Positions 2,948 through 28,059 of a stretch of 32,189 nt of DNA are shown here, one piece after another (within the stretch, counting starts at the first letter, position 1; each line of letters starts with the position of its first letter). Position numbers and translations under genes: made by a program. Origin of the DNA: a virus; the IMG/VR virus record IMGVR_UViG_3300030329_005675, positions 1 through 32,189 of that record, one strand, 5' to 3'. The notes beneath the pieces are model-generated. The model did no database searches. It was not told where the DNA came from and saw only the letters and a list, made by a program, of their open reading frames with translations.

Positions 2948-4780
2948 ATGGAAGATCGAATTTTTTGGTGGCAAGCAAGAGAAGCAAACGCGCACGACTT
3001 TGTTTTTGACCTGCTTAATTCAATGCAGCGCGATTATGAGTATGTGACCAGTTTAAACTTGCAGCACTATAGATCTTACAATGACGAGATGGCGGCATCC
3101 ATCAACCTCACAGGAATATCCAGGCCACAAGGCGCAGGTAAGCATAGGCCAGTCACTTTTAATGTAATCAAAAGCATGTGTGACACGGTTCAGGCAAAAA
3201 TCGCAAAGAATCGCCCTCGGTGCACCTTTCTAACTTCTGGCGGAGACTTTTCACAGCAAAGAAAAGGAAAGCTCCTGGAGAAATTTTGTGATGGTCAATT
3301 TTATAGAACTCGACTTTACGAAAAAGCTCCAGAGGTGTTTTTGGATGCATGTGTTTTTGGGACCGGTGTTCTAAAGGTATATGAGCACAATTCAGACATT
3401 CTATGTGAGCGTGTTTTCCCTGAAGAGATTATGGTCTCAATTGAAGAGGCTAAATACAAAAATCCTCGAAGTATGTTTCAGGTAAAGGCTGTCCCTAGGG
3501 ACGTGCTTACATACACCTACCCTGAGTACGCCGATAGAATCAAGGAAGCGTCCGCATATGAGACAGAGGAATATAACGCCGACTCAAACGTGAACGAAAT
3601 GGTTCGTGTTGTAGAGGCATGGCATTTACCAAGTATTGAGGGTGCCCCAGATGGAAGGCACGTGATTTGCTTGGAAAACCTAACACTGTTAGATGAGCGT
3701 TATGAACACAATTACTTTCCTTTCATTTTTCTTCGTTGGTCTGATCGTTTGCTCGGATTCTGGGGTCAGGGACTTGCTGAACAGCTTATGGGCATCCAGC
3801 TTGAAATTAATACGCTCCTTCAGAACATCCAACAACAAATGCACCTCGCAAAGCCCAAGGTCTTCCTTGAAACCGGCTCGCAGATAGCAGATCACCAGAT
3901 TAACAACGAAGAGTGGGGCATTATTGATTATGTGGGAAATCCACCTACATTTTTTGTCCCAAAAACGGTATCAGGTGAGGTGTTCTCACATTTAGACAGG
4001 TTGTTTAATCGGGCGTATCAGATTGCTGGCGTAAGTGAGTTGGCAGCGATGTCTAAAAAGCCAGCTGGCCTAGAGTCTGCTGTAGCGCTTCGAGAATTTA
4101 GCGACATTGAGACTGAGCGTTTTATGATTGTCGCTCAAAATTACGAAAACATGTTTTTGGCTGCATCGCGTCAAATGATAGATTTGGCCAGGAAAATTTC
4201 AGAGCGTGGCGATAACTATGCTGTTGTTAGCTCTGGTGATAAGTATATCGAACAAATCGACTGGAAGGATATAGATCTCCGGGAAGAGCAGTATGTCATG
4301 AAGATATGGCCCACTTCTCTACTGCCTCAGACTCCTGCAGGAAAGCTGCAAAAAGTCATAGAACTTGCGCAATCCGGAATTATTCAAGATCCAGGAACAA
4401 TCCTTAAGTTGTTGGATTATCCAGACATAGAAGCGGTAACTCAGTACATGACGGCAGATCAAGACGAGATTGATATGCTAATTGAAAACATGGTGAATAA
4501 GGGTGAGTACGTTCAACCAGAACCATATAGCAATTTGGCTTTATCGGTGAAGCGGGTGCAGCAGGCTTATTTACGCGCAAAAATAAACCGTGTGCCCGAG
4601 GAACGAATGGCTCTTCTTCGCCGTTATATTGAGGATTGCATGGCGCTAATGGCTACCATGGCGCAGGCAGCTCAACCCCCGATGGAGCAGGTCCCCCCTC
4701 CTGAAGGGGTTGATGCCGCACTTCCCGACGCGGGGCCACCCGCAGCACCGGAGGAACTCCCCCCTCAAGAACTACAATAA
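2948..4780 (+). CDS. Portal protein
   Basis: 610 residues: the dodecameric vertex ring through which DNA enters and leaves the head. The sequence has the podovirus portal pattern: a helical N-terminus (REANAHDFVFDLLNSM), a central wing/stem with FFPF-like hydrophobic segments, GQGLAEQLMGIQLEINTLLQNI (about 274-295), VSELAAMSKKPAGLESAVALRE (about 361-382), and a helical crown ending in a Pro/Glu-rich tail (last about 40 residues). It lies directly between large terminase and scaffold. The ATG follows AGGGGTAACC. Family assignment rests on these features and the gene order. Confidence 0.93.
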   Translation: MEDRIFWWQAREANAHDFVFDLLNSMQRDYEYVTSLNLQHYRSYNDEMAASINLTGISRPQGAGKHRPVTFNVIKSMCDTVQAKIAKNRPRCTFLTSGGDFSQQRKGKLLEKFCDGQFYRTRLYEKAPEVFLDACVFGTGVLKVYEHNSDILCERVFPEEIMVSIEEAKYKNPRSMFQVKAVPRDVLTYTYPEYADRIKEASAYETEEYNADSNVNEMVRVVEAWHLPSIEGAPDGRHVICLENLTLLDERYEHNYFPFIFLRWSDRLLGFWGQGLAEQLMGIQLEINTLLQNIQQQMHLAKPKVFLETGSQIADHQINNEEWGIIDYVGNPPTFFVPKTVSGEVFSHLDRLFNRAYQIAGVSELAAMSKKPAGLESAVALREFSDIETERFMIVAQNYENMFLAASRQMIDLARKISERGDNYAVVSSGDKYIEQIDWKDIDLREEQYVMKIWPTSLLPQTPAGKLQKVIELAQSGIIQDPGTILKLLDYPDIEAVTQYMTADQDEIDMLIENMVNKGEYVQPEPYSNLALSVKRVQQAYLRAKINRVPEERMALLRRYIEDCMALMATMAQAAQPPMEQVPPPEGVDAALPDAGPPAAPEELPPQELQ

Positions 4781-5788: not shown

Positions 5789-7012
5789 ATGGCAGCCCCA
5801 TTGAATCTAAGCACCGTCGATCAGGCGGTAAAGCAGCACTATAAGCCGCTTACAGTTAAAAACCTCGTTTACAAAAACAACCCATTTTACGCACTGGTTC
5901 CTAAGTATGAGCAGTTTGGCGGTTTGAATATGCCGATTCCTCTGATCTACGGAAACCCACAAAACGTTTCAGCGACGTTCTCAACTGCTCAGGCTGAAAC
6001 CTCTACCTCTAGCCTCGGTCAGTTCTTGATGACTCGAGTAAGCAATTACTCAGTTGCCTCTATTACTGGCGAAACCATCAAGGCCACCGATGGCAAAGCA
6101 GATGCTTTTATTCGGTACCTTACCATGGAGATTGATGGAGCAATTCACGCATTGGCTCGAGATCTCTCCGTTGCTCTTTTCCGTGACGGCGGTGGTTACA
6201 TTGGCCAGGTAAACAGCAGCTACAGCTCCGGAACCACAATTACCCTTGCGAACACTGATGAAATCGCCAACTTCGAAGTTGGCATGACCATCCTTTTCGC
6301 TTCGGATACTGGCGGCTCCACCTCTGCAACAAGTGCAACAACTATCAGCTCTATTGACCGAAGCGCTGGATCATTCGTTGTTGCAAGCGCTACTGGCATT
6401 GCCGCAGATGATTATGTTTTCCGGTCGGGAACTCAGGCAGGGGCAACTCTTACCTCAACAAGCGCTAAGGCGGTTATGGGACTAGACGGATGGCTTCCAT
6501 CCTCTGCTCCTGGTTCAACAGCGTTTTTCGGTCAAGACCGAAGCGTAGACACTGAGCGTTTGGGCGGTATCCGGTTTGACGGCTCTGCAATGCCAATTGA
6601 AGAAGCGCTTGTCTCTGGTGCAGCTAAAGCAGCACGCGCTGGAGCACGGCCTGACACATGCCTCATGAGCTATGAGTCATACATCAACCTAGAGAAGTCT
6701 TTGGGCTCCAGGGTTCGCTATGATGAGCTTAAGGCTCGTGATGCTGACGTTGGCTTCAGGTCATTATCGGTTCAAGGACCAAACGGTGTTATCAGTGTTG
6801 TTCCTGATCAAAACTGTCAGCCAGATGTAGCTTACATGCTTCAGCTTGACACATGGTCATTGAACTCACTTGGGGGCGCCCCACACATCCTTGATCTAGA
6901 TGGAAATAGAATTTTGCGGCAGTCTACAGCAGATGCTTACGAGGTCCGAGTTGGCTTCTACGGTAACCTTGCTTGTAACGCCCCAGGATACAATGTTCGT
7001 ATTGCACTTTAA
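5789..7012 (+). CDS. Major capsid protein, HK97-like fold, with insertion domain
   Basis: 407 residues. The N-terminal arm and E-loop region (residues 1-80) and the C-terminal P-domain/A-domain pattern fit the HK97-like shell protein of podoviruses. Residues about 137-222 form a Gly/Thr/Ser-rich block (ANFEVGMTILFASDTGG to FVVASATGIAADDYVF) that looks like a beta-barrel inserted after the spine helix (MEIDGAIHALARDLSVALFRDG). The strong AAGGAG RBS is eight bases before the ATG. It is preceded by the scaffold and followed by small decoration-like genes. Identity is well supported by position, size and sequence character. Confidence 0.92.
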   Translation: MAAPLNLSTVDQAVKQHYKPLTVKNLVYKNNPFYALVPKYEQFGGLNMPIPLIYGNPQNVSATFSTAQAETSTSSLGQFLMTRVSNYSVASITGETIKATDGKADAFIRYLTMEIDGAIHALARDLSVALFRDGGGYIGQVNSSYSSGTTITLANTDEIANFEVGMTILFASDTGGSTSATSATTISSIDRSAGSFVVASATGIAADDYVFRSGTQAGATLTSTSAKAVMGLDGWLPSSAPGSTAFFGQDRSVDTERLGGIRFDGSAMPIEEALVSGAAKAARAGARPDTCLMSYESYINLEKSLGSRVRYDELKARDADVGFRSLSVQGPNGVISVVPDQNCQPDVAYMLQLDTWSLNSLGGAPHILDLDGNRILRQSTADAYEVRVGFYGNLACNAPGYNVRIAL

Positions 7013-21858: not shown

Positions 21859-22212
21859 ATGGCAGCTAAATGGACAATTAATCAGTGTGATGACTACAAG
21901 CAGAAAGACGGCCACTCTAAGGTTATCTTTAATCTGCATTGGAGTTGTTCCGACGATAGAGAATACCCTAACCCGGAAGGGGGAGACCCCCTTGTTGCGC
22001 ACGGAAGCGTGTACGGAACATGCGCCGTAAGCACAGACGACATTCAAGACTTTACCCCATATGACGAAGTAACCGAGGCAATGGCTCTTAGCTGGCTTTT
22101 CTCGGTCATGACCGTTGAGCAAAAAGCCGGGTGTGAGGCCAGTGTTGAAAAGCAAATAGCGGACAAGATTGACCCACCAACAGAGTCGGGGCTACCTTGG
22201 GCTAGCGAATGA
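21859..22212 (+). CDS. Small conserved phage protein downstream of the fibre
   Basis: 117 residues with a tryptophan-containing start (KWTINQCDDYKQKDGHSKVI), a beta-rich body (FNLHWSCSD...YGTCAVSTDD), an acidic helix (YDEVTEAMALSWLFSVMT) and a final GLPWASE. The helix-then-GLPW end is a pattern I associate with small proteins of unknown role encoded after fibre genes in marine phages; I cannot verify the family here. Strong AGGAG RBS. Its stop overlaps the next start (ATGA), so it is coupled to the lysis cassette. Confidence 0.75.
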   Translation: MAAKWTINQCDDYKQKDGHSKVIFNLHWSCSDDREYPNPEGGDPLVAHGSVYGTCAVSTDDIQDFTPYDEVTEAMALSWLFSVMTVEQKAGCEASVEKQIADKIDPPTESGLPWASE

Positions 22213-22514
22213 TAGAGAACATCGGTGAGGTTGGGGCAACAGGGGTTTTGGCCGCTGTATGCTTCGCCTTGCTCGATTTCTTAAAGAATCACCTAAAAGA
22301 CGCTAAGGCAAAAAAGAACGGCGGGACAACCTACACTCGTCTAGCTCTTATCGAAGAAGCCCAGCGCGACCTAGAAGTAGCAATAAAAGATAATCAGGAT
22401 AAGCTACAAAGCTTTCATCGGGACTTTTGCGAATTCAGAGAAGAAGTTCGCGTTAACACTGCGGTGCAGAAGGCGAAAGCCGAAGCGCTCAGGGAGCTAA
22501 GAAATGAGCAATGA
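22209..22514 (+). CDS. One-TM, coiled-coil membrane protein (lysis cassette)
   Basis: 101 residues with an N-terminal hydrophobic helix (VGATGVLAAVCFALLDFL, about 8-25), a basic stretch (KNHLKDAKAKKNGG), then a long acidic/basic coiled coil to the end. The layout suits an inner-membrane lysis protein (holin accessory or inner spanin), but there is no motif to choose between them. It overlaps its upstream neighbour by an ATGA junction and the holin-like gene by 11 bases, a strong sign of coordinated translation in a lysis block. Confidence 0.6.
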   Translation: MIENIGEVGATGVLAAVCFALLDFLKNHLKDAKAKKNGGTTYTRLALIEEAQRDLEVAIKDNQDKLQSFHRDFCEFREEVRVNTAVQKAKAEALRELRNEQ

Positions 22515-22746
22515 AGGAAAGAAAACGTCAGAAGCTAAGCAATCCACTCTCGTTATTTTGTTGTCCACACTGCTACCAGCTACAGCCCTGGTTCTTGATA
22601 ACCTTGTTGGGAACGGCGTTATTAACGGAACATGGGCTATGGTTGCGGGTCTTGTATCTGCTGGCATTGCCAGCGCTGGTTATAGCTATTCTAGAGGAAA
22701 GGTAAAGGCAGCTGAGGCTATCGCTGAAGTAGCAAAAAAAAAGTAA
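22504..22746 (+). CDS. Holin-like two-TM protein
   Basis: 80 residues with two hydrophobic helices (about 15-34 and 44-62) separated by a short turn (DNLVGNGVINGT), and a charged C-terminus ending EVAKKK. Small size, two helices and a charged tail match class II holins, which permeabilise the inner membrane so the endolysin can act. The reading frame ends GCA AAA AAA AAG TAA. The heptamer A AAA AAG (22737-22743) is in the phase of a -1 slippery site, and the -1 frame stays open for 81 more codons, so a longer isoform is possible. It overlaps the preceding gene by 11 bases. Confidence 0.75.
   Translation: MSNEGKKTSEAKQSTLVILLSTLLPATALVLDNLVGNGVINGTWAMVAGLVSAGIASAGYSYSRGKVKAAEAIAEVAKKK
22734..22743 (+). 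other. A9-G run containing a -1 slippery heptamer
   Basis: Nine A residues (22734-22742) followed by G. In the holin frame the last seven bases (22737-22743) read A AAA AAG, then TAA. This is the same heptamer and phase as the E. coli dnaX -1 frameshift site. No obvious downstream pseudoknot is visible. An SD-like AGAGGAAAGG is about 30-40 bases upstream, further than is ideal. Confidence 0.6.
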
Positions 22747-22988
22747 CGGGATTAGTCAATGAAGGATTCAGAGAGTCAGTCGCTCGCAAAATCGATCTTA
22801 ATCCAAGCAACACTATGTTGCTCGGTTTACGGGCTGCTGACGACTGGTCTCTTGATAACGGAATGCTTCAAGCTGAAGCGTTCGTTGAAGCGAACGTTAA
22901 TATCAATGATGAAATAAAACTATTTGCTGAGGCCTCAGCCAACACTGAGTCCTGGCAAGCCATAACGGGGATAAAAATTGACTTTTAA
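22743..22988 (+). CDS. Open -1 frame after the holin-like gene (frameshift product)
   Basis: 81 sense codons in the -1 frame, read from GTA at 22743 and ending at TAA 22986-22988; fused to the holin-like protein this gives 161 residues. First codon positions are rich in G and A, unlike the competing frame. The peptide (KIDLNPSNTMLLGLRAADD; QAEAFVEANVNINDEIKLFA; ITGIKIDF) shows alternating polar/hydrophobic strands and a final aromatic residue, like a small beta-meander. No ATG, GTG or TTG occurs before ATG 22815, so normal initiation would make only the last 57 residues. Independent translation from 22815, or a homopolymer-length error, are the alternatives. Confidence 0.5.
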   Translation, partial: VTGLVNEGFRESVARKIDLNPSNTMLLGLRAADDWSLDNGMLQAEAFVEANVNINDEIKLFAEASANTESWQAITGIKIDF

Positions 22989-23002: not shown

Positions 23003-23746
23003 ATGGGGAGTCGGCTTACTCGTGTCGCGTTTCTGCCAGACACGCACGTTCCGTTTCACTCGAAAGCGGCCCTACAGATAGCAACCAATGCAATCCGTAG
23101 GTTCGCGCCAGATATCTTAGTCGTCCTAGGCGACTTCGCAGACTTTTATTCAGTTTCATTTCACGACAAATCTCCAGACCGATCGATACACCTTAAAGCC
23201 GAAATCAAAGAAGTTCGAAAGCATCTTTCAAAATTTGAAGCAATGCCTATCAAGCGAAAGATATTTTTGATGGGCAACCATGAGTATCGACTTCAAAGAT
23301 ACCTAACAAACAAAGCGCCTGAGCTTTTTGGTTTGGTCGATGCGCACGAACTATTCAAGCTAGAGGAAAATGATTGGGAATGGGTACCGTATCGTAGAAG
23401 CGTCATACTTTATAATGTGGCTGTATCTCATGACTTTGGCAGCTCCGGTGCGAATGCCGCAACTAAGGCAATGACAAAAATGGGCACTAGCGTTGTAATG
23501 GGGCACACTCACAGAATGTCTGTCACAAGCAGAAGCGACGCAGGGGGTAACTTGATTCAGGCTGCCATGTTTGGGTGGCTCGGAGATATCAGTGAAATAG
23601 GTTATGCCAACAGGCTTAGCGTTAGGAGCGATTGGCTACATGGGTTTGGTGTTGGCTATGTTTACAAGGGGGAGTTTGTAAAGATTTCGGCTATCCCCAT
23701 TATCGATGAATCTTACTGTATATTGGAAGGTGAGGTGGTGAGATGA
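23003..23746 (+). CDS. Calcineurin-like metallophosphoesterase
   Basis: 247 residues with the full metal-ligand series: LPDTHVPFH (D13, H15), VVLGDFADF (D44), MGNHEYR (N92, H93), SHDFG (H143) and VMGHTHR (H168, H170). Such enzymes use two metal ions to cut phosphomono- or diesters; the substrate (nucleotide, DNA end or host phosphoprotein) cannot be told from sequence. It lies inside the lysis/accessory cassette, with a GGGGCAGCC RBS and an ATGA overlap to the next gene. It is complete, so probably active. Confidence 0.9.
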   Translation: MGSRLTRVAFLPDTHVPFHSKAALQIATNAIRRFAPDILVVLGDFADFYSVSFHDKSPDRSIHLKAEIKEVRKHLSKFEAMPIKRKIFLMGNHEYRLQRYLTNKAPELFGLVDAHELFKLEENDWEWVPYRRSVILYNVAVSHDFGSSGANAATKAMTKMGTSVVMGHTHRMSVTSRSDAGGNLIQAAMFGWLGDISEIGYANRLSVRSDWLHGFGVGYVYKGEFVKISAIPIIDESYCILEGEVVR

Positions 23747-24015
23747 GGAGGATACCAAAGCAACTCACAATTGCGGGGCACACAATTGACGTTGAGTTTG
23801 ATGAACTTGATGAATGTTACGGGTTATTTGACCCGATGAAAATGAAGATAGTTATTAGCAATGACTCAACCAAGTCGATGCAATGGGAAACCTTTTGTCA
23901 TGAGCTAGTAGAAGCGATAAACTTTTTTGCAGAGGCAGACTTAGAACACAAGTCGATTCAGGTCTTTGGGCTCTTATTGGCTCAGTCACTTGCATCGTTT
24001 AAACATAAAAAATGA
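23743..24015 (+). CDS. Zincin-like small phage protein
   Basis: 90 residues. The core WETFCHELVEAINFF carries H53-E54 and E57, followed by H69 in LEHKSIQVFGLLLAQSL. This resembles the HE-x-x-E...H zinc-site arrangement of small phage proteins whose helix carries HE(L/I)(I/V)EA. It may be a metallopeptidase-like or purely structural zinc protein. It overlaps the phosphoesterase by an ATGA junction, so the two are probably co-translated. Function unknown. Confidence 0.65.
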   Translation: MRRIPKQLTIAGHTIDVEFDELDECYGLFDPMKMKIVISNDSTKSMQWETFCHELVEAINFFAEADLEHKSIQVFGLLLAQSLASFKHKK

Positions 24016-24022
24016 GGAAGCT

Positions 24023-24256
24023 ATGGCGTACAGAAAAGGAAACGGAAGTAAGAAGAACTGGATTCAAGGGGTCAAGAAGACAATGAAGAAGAAGGGAACC
24101 GCCGGCGCTTTTTCAAAACAAGCCAAGCGCGCGAAAATGGGAACCGCTGCTTACGCGACTAAGGTTCTCAAGCCTGGCAGTAAGGCAAGTGCAACAACAA
24201 AAAAGAGAGCAACGCTTGCCAAGACCTTTGCTAAAATGCGGGCGAAAAAGCGATGA
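24023..24256 (+). CDS. Small highly basic protein
   Basis: 77 residues from ATG 24023 behind GAGGAAG; an upstream ATG in the same frame falls inside the previous gene and lacks an RBS. About a third of the residues are Lys/Arg (KKNWIQGVKKTMKKKGTAG, KATTKKRATLAKT, MRAKKR), with Ala/Ser/Thr in between, like histone-type or DNA-coating proteins. It could bind DNA, RNA or the peptidoglycan/membrane surface. The next gene starts four bases before its end, so the unit is tightly packed. Confidence 0.7.
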   Translation: MAYRKGNGSKKNWIQGVKKTMKKKGTAGAFSKQAKRAKMGTAAYATKVLKPGSKASATTKKRATLAKTFAKMRAKKR

Positions 24257-24678
24257 TAATTGATGACCAAAAATGGGTAGGGCAATACTTCCAAGCAAAA
24301 GAGTTTAAATGCCCATGCTGCGGAATAAACACGGTACACCCTCGACTGGTCTTGCGGCTCGATAAGATACGAGCAGAGATAGGCGTTCCTCTTCGGATAA
24401 GCAGTGGCGTAAGGTGTCCGTCTCATAATGCAAATGTGGGCGGTGCAAGTAACTCGTTCCATATGCCGAGAGACGGCGGAAAGGGATGGGCGGCAGACTT
24501 CACTTTCTCAAGCGCAGCCCTTAAGGTCCCCATAAATATAGTTAAGTTATACCTGGCAGCATGCGAACAATCGATAGCTAGTGGCGGCGTCATACTTTAC
24601 CCGACATGGGTTCATGTTGACGTGCGCCCAAAAAGATATCGATCAACCAAGAAATTCCCATGGCCTAGACTTGCCTAA
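24253..24678 (+). CDS. Endolysin, M15 peptidase (L-Ala-D-Glu / D-Ala-D-Ala type)
   Basis: 141 residues with the M15 zinc-peptidase signature: SSGVRCPSHN, SNSFHMPRDGGKGWAADF (H70, D82 as metal ligands) and TWVHVDVR (H121 as third ligand, D123 supporting). This is the phage endolysin/VanY-like group, which cuts peptide bonds in the peptidoglycan stem. No signal peptide or transmembrane segment, so release through a holin is expected, matching the upstream holin-like gene. The N-terminal EFKCPCCG cluster may add a metal site. It ends the main rightward block, just before a repeated control sequence. Confidence 0.92.
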   Translation: MIIDDQKWVGQYFQAKEFKCPCCGINTVHPRLVLRLDKIRAEIGVPLRISSGVRCPSHNANVGGASNSFHMPRDGGKGWAADFTFSSAALKVPINIVKLYLAACEQSIASGGVILYPTWVHVDVRPKRYRSTKKFPWPRLA

Positions 24679-26554: not shown

Positions 26555-27367
26555 TCAACTAACGGCATGGTCAACAATCTCCCCCCCAAAAATAGCAGCC
26601 GCCTTAACTGCTTCTTCCGGAACGCTCGGAAGCGTTTCTATGCGCTTGATTTCGTCTTCAACTATTCTTATAAATACTGACTTATGAATAGGTGGTGTGG
26701 TGTGCGCGTTATATGCAAGAGCCTTCTCCCTTACATATTCGCGCCTCTCATCACCGGTCATTTTTCCTTCTTTAGAAAAATAGATTCGACGAATAAACAT
26801 ATGTAACGCGCTGCGTTTTACCTTTCTTATTTCTTCGGCTTCTTTCCAATAAATGTTTCTATAGTTTTTTTTTGTTGCTTCCATCTGAAGCCGCAGCTTA
26901 GCGGGCACAGATGCAAGGGGTTTATCTGGACCAACAAGCCATGAAACGCGCTTACCGTCCGGAAGTTTACTCGGAGGTGCTAAGACGTATGCAACTCTAA
27001 CGCTCACGCCTTCGGCCTCCCACATGACATTCAAATCATCAAACGCCCTGAAGAAAACGCACCACTTACCTTCTGTGAAACAAGCCCACGTTTTAGGTAT
27101 ACTGTATTTATCTTTTAAAGCGTTCCACGCCTGTATGTCGGATATTTCTAGACATAGGAGAGACGTCCCATTTACGTCGATCGCTATGTTTTGATTGTCT
27201 ATTAGCTCTTGTCCTATTTGTGGAAAATCCACACCATTCCCTACATGTGACCCTTTTTGCGAACAGTGGGGGTCACCACATGTACATTCATTATTCGGCA
27301 TTAGTCCCGCACTCGGTACGACGGGAACACCATTATCCAGGTACCAAGCGTACCATTGCTTTATCAT
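26555..27367 (-). CDS. PrimPol-like protein with degenerate active site
   Basis: 270 residues from ATG 27367, two bases after the preceding stop; an upstream ATG at 27409 is inside that gene. The N-terminus matches the bifunctional primase-polymerase (archaeo-eukaryotic primase) family: CTCGDPHCSQKGSH (28-41, probable zinc site), a 'YVLAPPSKLPDGKRVSWL' segment (127-144) and 'KPLASVPAKL' (149-158). The catalytic parts differ. Where the family has an acidic pair (LDxD/E), here is CLEISD (E74, S76), and the GG-x-H-x-YF motif is replaced by EGKWCVFF (99-106) with no histidine. I infer that primase catalysis is lost and a DNA-binding or helicase-partner role kept. The SF3 helicase is encoded separately upstream. 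Confidence 0.7.
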   Translation of the reverse strand: MIKQWYAWYLDNGVPVVPSAGLMPNNECTCGDPHCSQKGSHVGNGVDFPQIGQELIDNQNIAIDVNGTSLLCLEISDIQAWNALKDKYSIPKTWACFTEGKWCVFFRAFDDLNVMWEAEGVSVRVAYVLAPPSKLPDGKRVSWLVGPDKPLASVPAKLRLQMEATKKNYRNIYWKEAEEIRKVKRSALHMFIRRIYFSKEGKMTGDERREYVREKALAYNAHTTPPIHKSVFIRIVEDEIKRIETLPSVPEEAVKAAAIFGGEIVDHAVS

Positions 27368-27369
27368 TG

Positions 27370-28059
27370 TCACTGATCTACCCCCGGAGGTGGCGGCGCG
27401 TCTTCCCATACCATCTTGAATTGCTGCGTTGCGGCAATAGAGCTGGCCGCCCCTTCCTCAATAACCTCGGGCTCCTTTGCCTTCTCCTTTGCCTTAGGTT
27501 TGGGCTTAGGCGCAGATAGCTTTTTCTTAAGAGCCTCTTTAGCTTCTGTGTTTTCCTTTTTTGGGGGAGGCGTTGAAATCTTCTCGTGGCCTGACATAGT
27601 ATCAAGCTCGCTTTCATCCAGCATGCCTAAACCGCATATGGAGAGGGTAACCCGTCGCTTGGCCTTCGTTACGCACTTCATCCGGGCGTTAACGAGGGCC
27701 TCGCCTCGGAGCTTCTCGCAGTTGATCGCTGCGATATCCTCATCCACTCGGCCATCTCTATCAGTAGCTTTTGCATGAACCACAATGCATCCGTCTTCAA
27801 TGACGTTGCGCGTTATCTCAATTGAGACGCCGTGAATCTTGCGTAGCTGGTCCGTTGCAGACTTTGTCGCATAAAGAACCACCCTCCCCTGGAAGCGAAT
27901 GAACGAGAAGGGGCGGGCCATTGCGTTCAAGCCAGTGCTTTCGCAAAGGCGTTGAACGTACTCTACGCGCTGTTGTGGTTGTAGTGCCGATAGATTGCCG
28001 TCAGTTAAGACCTGCTCAATCTGCTCGAATGCTTCTTCTTGTTTTGTTAACTGTCCCAT
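27370..28059 (-). CDS. Single-strand annealing protein candidate (RecT/Rad52-type)
   Basis: 229 residues. The conserved part (residues 25-150) contains RLCESTGLNAMARPFSFIR, VVLYATKSATDQLRKIHGVSI and CVTKAKRRVTLSICGLGMLD (about 130-149). This basic 'TKAKRR' segment and the following acidic LDESEL are typical of a phage group often annotated as RecT-like annealing proteins. The C-terminus is disordered (Lys/Pro/Ala-rich, 160-200, then PPPPG). Directly downstream of a YqaJ-type exonuclease gene (28061-28978), with which it would form an annealase/exonuclease pair acting on DNA ends. Without a search I cannot separate it from a related replication protein. Confidence 0.65.
   Translation of the reverse strand: MGQLTKQEEAFEQIEQVLTDGNLSALQPQQRVEYVQRLCESTGLNAMARPFSFIRFQGRVVLYATKSATDQLRKIHGVSIEITRNVIEDGCIVVHAKATDRDGRVDEDIAAINCEKLRGEALVNARMKCVTKAKRRVTLSICGLGMLDESELDTMSGHEKISTPPPKKENTEAKEALKKKLSAPKPKPKAKEKAKEPEVIEEGAASSIAATQQFKMVWEDAPPPPGVDQ

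Follow-up and report, generated by a model that had tools for sequence, protein, structure and literature searches.

A probable programmed −1 frameshift adds a conserved beta domain to a holin-like protein in uncultured phages

For the tail and capsid genes of phages, −1 frameshifting has been amply documented. In dnaX, the product of the −1 frameshift is the shorter one, and the shift is strongly stimulated by a Shine-Dalgarno sequence and a hairpin. Pairs of holin and antiholin made from a single gene are exemplified by lambda S105/S107 and by S21. The 24.1/24.1* and 26/26* proteins of SPP1 are further holin/antiholin pairs of this kind (PMC6316719). Among tailed phages, the tail-assembly chaperones use a programmed −1 frameshift, as in lambda G/GT and P2 E/E+E' (Xu, Hendrix and Duda 2004, cited in PMC3091744 and PMC3556154), and simple heptamers unaccompanied by RNA structure are known in phage tail genes, including P2 E/E+E' (PMC3091744). 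Our coverage of the literature is incomplete, and within it we found no published description of a frameshift in a holin or holin-like gene. Here we describe a locus in an uncultured virus at which a programmed −1 frameshift at the end of a holin-like gene is likely to yield a minor extended form of the protein, which may act as a modulator of lysis.

The gene cassette and its frame junction

The window, by which we mean the whole stretch of DNA analysed, is the 32,189-base uncultured virus record IMGVR_UViG_3300030329_005675 (positions 1 to 32,189). A DUF7936 gene (21859-22212; Pfam PF25590, E 3e-18) lies upstream of a lysis-type cassette, the first member of which (22209-22514; weak matches to PHROG 1863 and 1009) encodes a protein with one N-terminal transmembrane (TM) segment followed by a charged coiled coil, called the partner below. 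The holin-like gene (22504-22746) has an ATG start with AGGGAG 7 nt upstream, and its zero-frame product is 80 residues long. An M15-type endolysin is encoded at 24253-24678 (PF08291, E 2e-12; phrog_894, E 3e-30). These four genes, and all of the junction features given below, are on the plus strand. The region between extension and endolysin (23003-24256) holds a metallophosphoesterase, a DUF6782-like metallopeptidase and a small basic protein.

The holin-like frame ends GCA AAA AAA AAG TAA, the stop codon occupying 22744-22746. The nine consecutive A residues (22734-22742) form the longest A run in the window and a potential site of RNA polymerase slippage. The slippery heptamer A AAA AAG (22737-22743) is in phase and abuts the stop codon, and a second in-phase heptamer, A AAA AAA (22734-22740), overlaps it. 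From 22743 the −1 frame reads through 81 codons without a stop (coding to 22985), ending in GIKIDF and a TAA that finishes at 22988. A TGA in the −1 frame directly upstream of the A run (22725-22727), absent from the first-pass annotation, means that the frame can be entered only within 22728-22746. The first ATG, GTG or TTG of the extension frame is an ATG at codon 25 (22815-22817), without a Shine-Dalgarno sequence, so that 24 codons lie beyond the reach of ordinary initiation. The fused product is predicted to have 161 residues, with KKK joined to VTG in the context EVAK KK/VTGLVNEGFR (the slash marking the junction), and its extension includes the peptide AADDWSLDNGMLQAEAFVEANVN.

Direct reading bears out everything that the first-pass annotation had stated about the sequence: the codons with which the holin-like frame ends, the phase of the heptamer and the adjoining stop, the 81 open codons with no ATG, GTG or TTG in the first 24, and a joined product of 161 residues, which agrees with the 80 and 81 codons read. 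At the level of mechanism, most ribosomes would stop at the TAA to give the 80-residue two-TM protein, while a minority would move back by one base on A AAA AAG (on G GGA AAG in another lineage). The resulting 161-residue form would have the same membrane part followed by a helix and a beta domain of four strands. That ribosomes slip here, how often they do so and what function this serves are all inferred.

Elsewhere in the genes of the window, in-phase heptamers of this kind open into −1 continuations of just 2-26 codons. A second in-phase run of nine A on a coding strand is found in a minus-strand replication-type gene (26555-27409), appearing as a T run at 26865. Its heptamers are A AAA AAA and A AAA AAC, and the −1 frame stops after just 2 codons, so that a slip there would produce a truncation, if anything. 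When codon choice was randomised under local codon usage for a fixed protein sequence, the window's holin-like gene acquired an in-phase heptamer at its end with P=0.26; by itself, therefore, the window site proves little.

Related loci and the route into the second frame

Scans with alignments of the holin, extension, partner, DUF7936 and endolysin yielded 12 loci beyond the window. The resulting 13 loci, all from uncultured phages, were divided into five lineages: the window (I); L001, L002 and L008 (II); L017, L024, L028 and L033 (III); L038 and L039 (IV); and L040, L041 and L042 (V). In each, the holin-like gene is followed by a homologous −1-frame domain ending in W or F, complete in all except L040, where the contig end cuts it, and present in one copy per record. 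The DUF7936 gene, itself a query for finding further loci, is kept in six loci of lineages I-III, as judged by alignment. Between the window and lineage II, the extension is only 33-38% identical, compared with 75-79% for the holin and 62-65% for the endolysin, and it thus evolves faster than its neighbours.

Conservation of the −1 frame across the five lineages is directly observed: the extension is in the −1 frame relative to the holin-like gene at every one of the 13 loci, never 0 or +1. Equally, each locus has an in-phase slippery heptamer within the overlap where both frames are open, lying 0-24 nt before the zero-frame stop. The heptamer is A AAA AAA/G/C in ten loci and G GGA AAG in three. 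Lineage II junctions read GCA AAA AAA AAC TAA or GCA AAA AAG AAC TGA, and those of lineage III GCC AAA AAA AAC TCC TGA, TTA AAA AAA AGC TCC TAG or TCT AAA AAA AAA TAA. The lineage IV junction reads GTA AAA AAG and, after a further 24 nt, TAG; that of lineage V is GTG GGA AAG TCC AAG GAG TAG, for which the predicted joined peptide is KVQGVAD. GGGAAAG is the lambda G-T frameshift site. As in the window, a −1 stop lies directly upstream of the slip site in L028/L033 and L040/L042, so that in these representatives of lineages I, III and V the heptamer falls inside an interval of 7-22 nt between the −1 stop and the zero-frame stop.

Among 28 homologous holins that have no extension, by comparison, not one carries an in-phase slippery heptamer in its last 37 nt. 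The contrast between 13/13 and 0/28 gives a Fisher value of 6e-11, which is not phylogenetically corrected and overstates the significance since the loci are related. The codon-randomised P values for the five lineages are about 0.26, 0.19, 0.18, 0.16 and 0.02, with a product of about 3e-5. The comparative evidence thus supports the original proposal of a −1 shift adding 81 residues. That proposal had also suggested asking whether homologues have A AAA AAG at the junction, a direct fusion, or a separate start codon for the second part. No plain fusion was seen among them, the heptamers include G GGA AAG, and separate starts are inconsistent, there being none for 24 codons in the window and variable ones elsewhere.

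Homopolymers are error-prone and 81 open codons are not in themselves rare, both of which might point to an assembly error in the A run or to a chance open frame. The same −1 relation is, however, found in independent metagenomes, the G GGA AAG of three loci contains no homopolymer and cannot be a homopolymer error, and the −1 domain is homologous between loci and under purifying selection. Sequencing error and a chance ORF are therefore ruled out by the relatives, and we give this explanation practically no credence.

A more serious contender is slippage of RNA polymerase on the nine A residues, adding one A so that ten A make a plain fusion and the long form is translated from edited mRNA. 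In many bacterial genomes, selection against slippage starts to show once a run reaches nine A, and insertion sequence (IS) elements exploit 9-A sites for transcriptional slippage (PMC1088944). Runs of this length are present in the window, L001, L008, L028 and L033. The runs of L017 and L024, however, have 8 A, and polymerase slippage is not expected at the six-A sites of L002 and L038/L039 (AAAAAAG) or at the GGGAAAG of L040-L042; it would yield other frames too. We therefore think it rather unlikely as the explanation, while recognising that transcriptional slippage may add to a ribosomal shift at the 9-A sites. Ribosomal −1 frameshifting, by contrast, fits every lineage, and evidence from E. 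coli (PMC5009743) was counted in its favour.

The second frame might alternatively be a separate small gene, expressed without fusion by termination and re-initiation after the holin stop. Possible places for this are the ATAATG of L028/L033, where an ATG overlaps the stop, and the GTG codons found 4-7 codons past the slip site in lineages II and V (L001, L002, L008, L041 and L042); L017 has an ATG at 5 codons. Yet neither the position nor the codon of the start is conserved. The window has GTC where its relatives have GTG, no start for 24 codons and no Shine-Dalgarno sequence, and L038 lacks a start in the first 22 codons past the slip, as does L024 in the first 10-11. The frame, moreover, is always the same and a slippery heptamer always present, and re-initiation appears improbable.

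Programmed −1 recoding thus remains the preferred reading, and we consider it highly probable that it joins the two frames, in the absence of any expression, peptide or reporter data. No conserved downstream stem-loop was found (z-scores −2.0 to +1.0), pseudoknots being outside the model, and an upstream GAGG is weak, 13-16 nt from the site and seen in some loci. The site is accordingly dnaX-like in its heptamer only, with no conserved stem-loop and at best a weak, distant GAGG.

Among 50,697 isolate phage records there is no homologue of the holin, extension, partner, capsid (5789-7012) or portal (2948-4780), tblastn having been used for the capsid and portal, so that the window lineage is without a cultured relative among those records. 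Neither the extension nor the lineage III holin has a match in GTDB genomes. The isolates MW202825, CRP-7, CRP-227 and S-EIV1 were considered for their DUF7936 neighbours; in MW202825 and CRP-227, the two with ORFs examined, other proteins follow DUF7936, with no such extension.

The holin-like protein, its extension and a possible role in lysis

The window protein has TM segments at residues 17-35 and 38-56 and a charged C-terminus, satisfying the criteria for a small two-TM protein, although the second TM segment is weaker in lineages III-V. A position in the lysis cassette beside the endolysin is likewise satisfied in most lineages, where the order is partner, holin-like gene, extension, endolysin. 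The protein matches no curated holin family in Pfam, and PHROG 962 'holin' is reached only by L017 at E 0.34. What makes it holin-like is its anatomy and position rather than a family match. Comparison of the two holin types among the loci gives an hhalign E of 0.008 but a probability of 5%, so that homology between them is only suggested.

The endolysin is immediately 3' of the extension in L001, L002, L008, L028 and L038, and shortly after it in L017; it comes one gene later in L024 and L042 and three genes later in the window. None was recognised just after the extension in L041. In the three lineage II loci the endolysin ATG comes directly after the extension stop, and in L038 a phosphoesterase follows the endolysin. 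Lineages I-III have the M15 type, while L038 (4474-5064) and L042 (1904-2491) have a phrog_3000/33083-type endolysin occupying the cassette region of the M15 enzyme. This swap around the frameshift gene is a modular exchange.

Between close relatives the dN/dS of the extension is 0.08-0.30, from which it is seen to be under purifying selection. In leave-one-lineage-out tests, HMM bit scores for every lineage exceeded those of 500 shuffles per sequence, narrowly so for lineage III, and profile-profile comparison of the extension between lineages with hhalign gave E-values of 1e-6 to 2e-5. AlphaFold predicts the lineage III form (L024) confidently as a four-strand antiparallel beta-meander (mean pLDDT 85.5) and the window form, with low confidence, as a helix plus four strands (mean pLDDT 54.5). 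The suggestion that the extension is a small beta-meander ending in Phe is in keeping with these models and with the GIKIDF terminus. Searches against Pfam and PHROGs returned nothing convincing, and the PDB yielded by sequence only a weak stretch of DcaP porin (E 0.02). Since there is no start codon near the window junction and the domain is absent from PHROGs and Pfam, gene callers miss this conserved 81-residue domain in these phages.

The charge distribution, read by the positive-inside rule, suggests a cytoplasmic location for the N- and C-termini of the holin-like protein and for the partner's coiled coil, the partner being predicted to be N-out. The extension is thus probably cytoplasmic too, and its beta domain would face the same side of the membrane as the coiled-coil product of the adjacent gene. 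The counterpart of the partner in the loci examined is a fast-evolving one-TM coiled-coil protein encoded 5' of the holin-like gene. Its predicted topology is the opposite of that of an i-spanin (N-in, coil in the periplasm), which it does not satisfy, and resembles XhlA-type partners.

The extended form would, in our proposal, be a minor partner at a fixed ratio in the same membrane assembly, altering the timing or the shape of hole formation. Such a role as lysis modulator is the likeliest of those considered but is put forward tentatively, at somewhat less than even chances; lysis tuning is untested. That the extension persists although the endolysin changes type from lineage to lineage speaks against a role specific to that enzyme.

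A different possibility is that the extended form links the inner and outer membranes in a spanin-like manner, the frameshifted minority carrying a trimeric Hia/YadA-like anchor on the holin part and so joining hole formation to outer-membrane disruption in phages without recognisable spanins. Fold searches were run with the L024 model because of the low confidence of the window model. The top PDB match is the Hia anchor (3emo), with further matches to the AtaA and YadA anchors and to the end strands of EspP, and several phage YadA-anchor proteins are matched in BFVD. In addition, the extension ends in W or F, its strand polarity alternates, and no spanin lipobox ORF is found in the window under a strict pattern. 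The Foldseek E of the top match is only 0.014, however, which is not significant, and unrelated methyltransferase meanders score as well as the anchors (VIA Z 7.2 versus 6.0). Nor does PF03895 (YadA_anchor) match any of 11 records at E<=10, and the positive-inside reading places the C-terminus in the cytoplasm. A membrane-linking role is accordingly doubtful, and we would be surprised to see it confirmed. BFVD also includes a phiEco32 'agglutinating adhesin', a weak fold match to the extension with about the length of phiEco32 gene 18, a tail protein gene (NC_010324, 15601-16404) that comes straight after the holin and endolysin. As context for a YadA-like phage protein, phiEco32 proved uninformative.

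Comparison with known recoding and lysis systems

If the extended form is expressed, recoding rather than a pair of start codons sets a fixed ratio of two lysis-protein forms, and lysis timing would be coupled to slippage rate and tunable by single silent changes. The change of slip site from A AAA AAG to G GGA AAG with the frame fixed provides a clean natural experiment on what is selected.

When compared with the tail-assembly chaperones, the present gene would share a shift near the gene end at a simple heptamer (for instance AAAAAAC, GGGAAAC or TTTTTTG in the chaperones), often without RNA structure, products with a common N-terminus, and a motif that varies by lineage while the frame is kept. 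It differs in that the chaperones precede a tape-measure gene, whereas the protein encoded here is a two-TM holin-like one beside an endolysin, with a beta-meander as its extension. With dnaX it has in common the heptamer A AAA AAG in the same phase, but here the shifted product is the longer one and no conserved stimulator was found.

Like the holin/antiholin pairs, the locus would provide a small membrane lysis protein in two versions that differ at one end. In those pairs two start codons are used and the N-terminus differs by a few residues, whereas here a whole C-terminal domain would be added via recoding. The two-component systems XhlA/XhlB and SPP1 gp24.1/gp26 (PMC6316719) similarly combine a one-TM protein, a two-TM holin-like protein and an endolysin, but no frameshift extension is described for them and the TM segment of their one-TM partner is elsewhere; the likeness has not been tested for homology. 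The model of the extension resembles the trimeric autotransporter anchors (Hia 3emo, YadA 2lme; PF03895) in its helix, four-strand meander and aromatic end, on a fold match short of significance, and is distinguished from them by the lack of a PF03895 match or a signal peptide and by its predicted cytoplasmic side. Frameshifting at simple heptamers is already known; what would be new, going by the literature searched, is to find it in a holin-like gene, where it adds a conserved beta domain.
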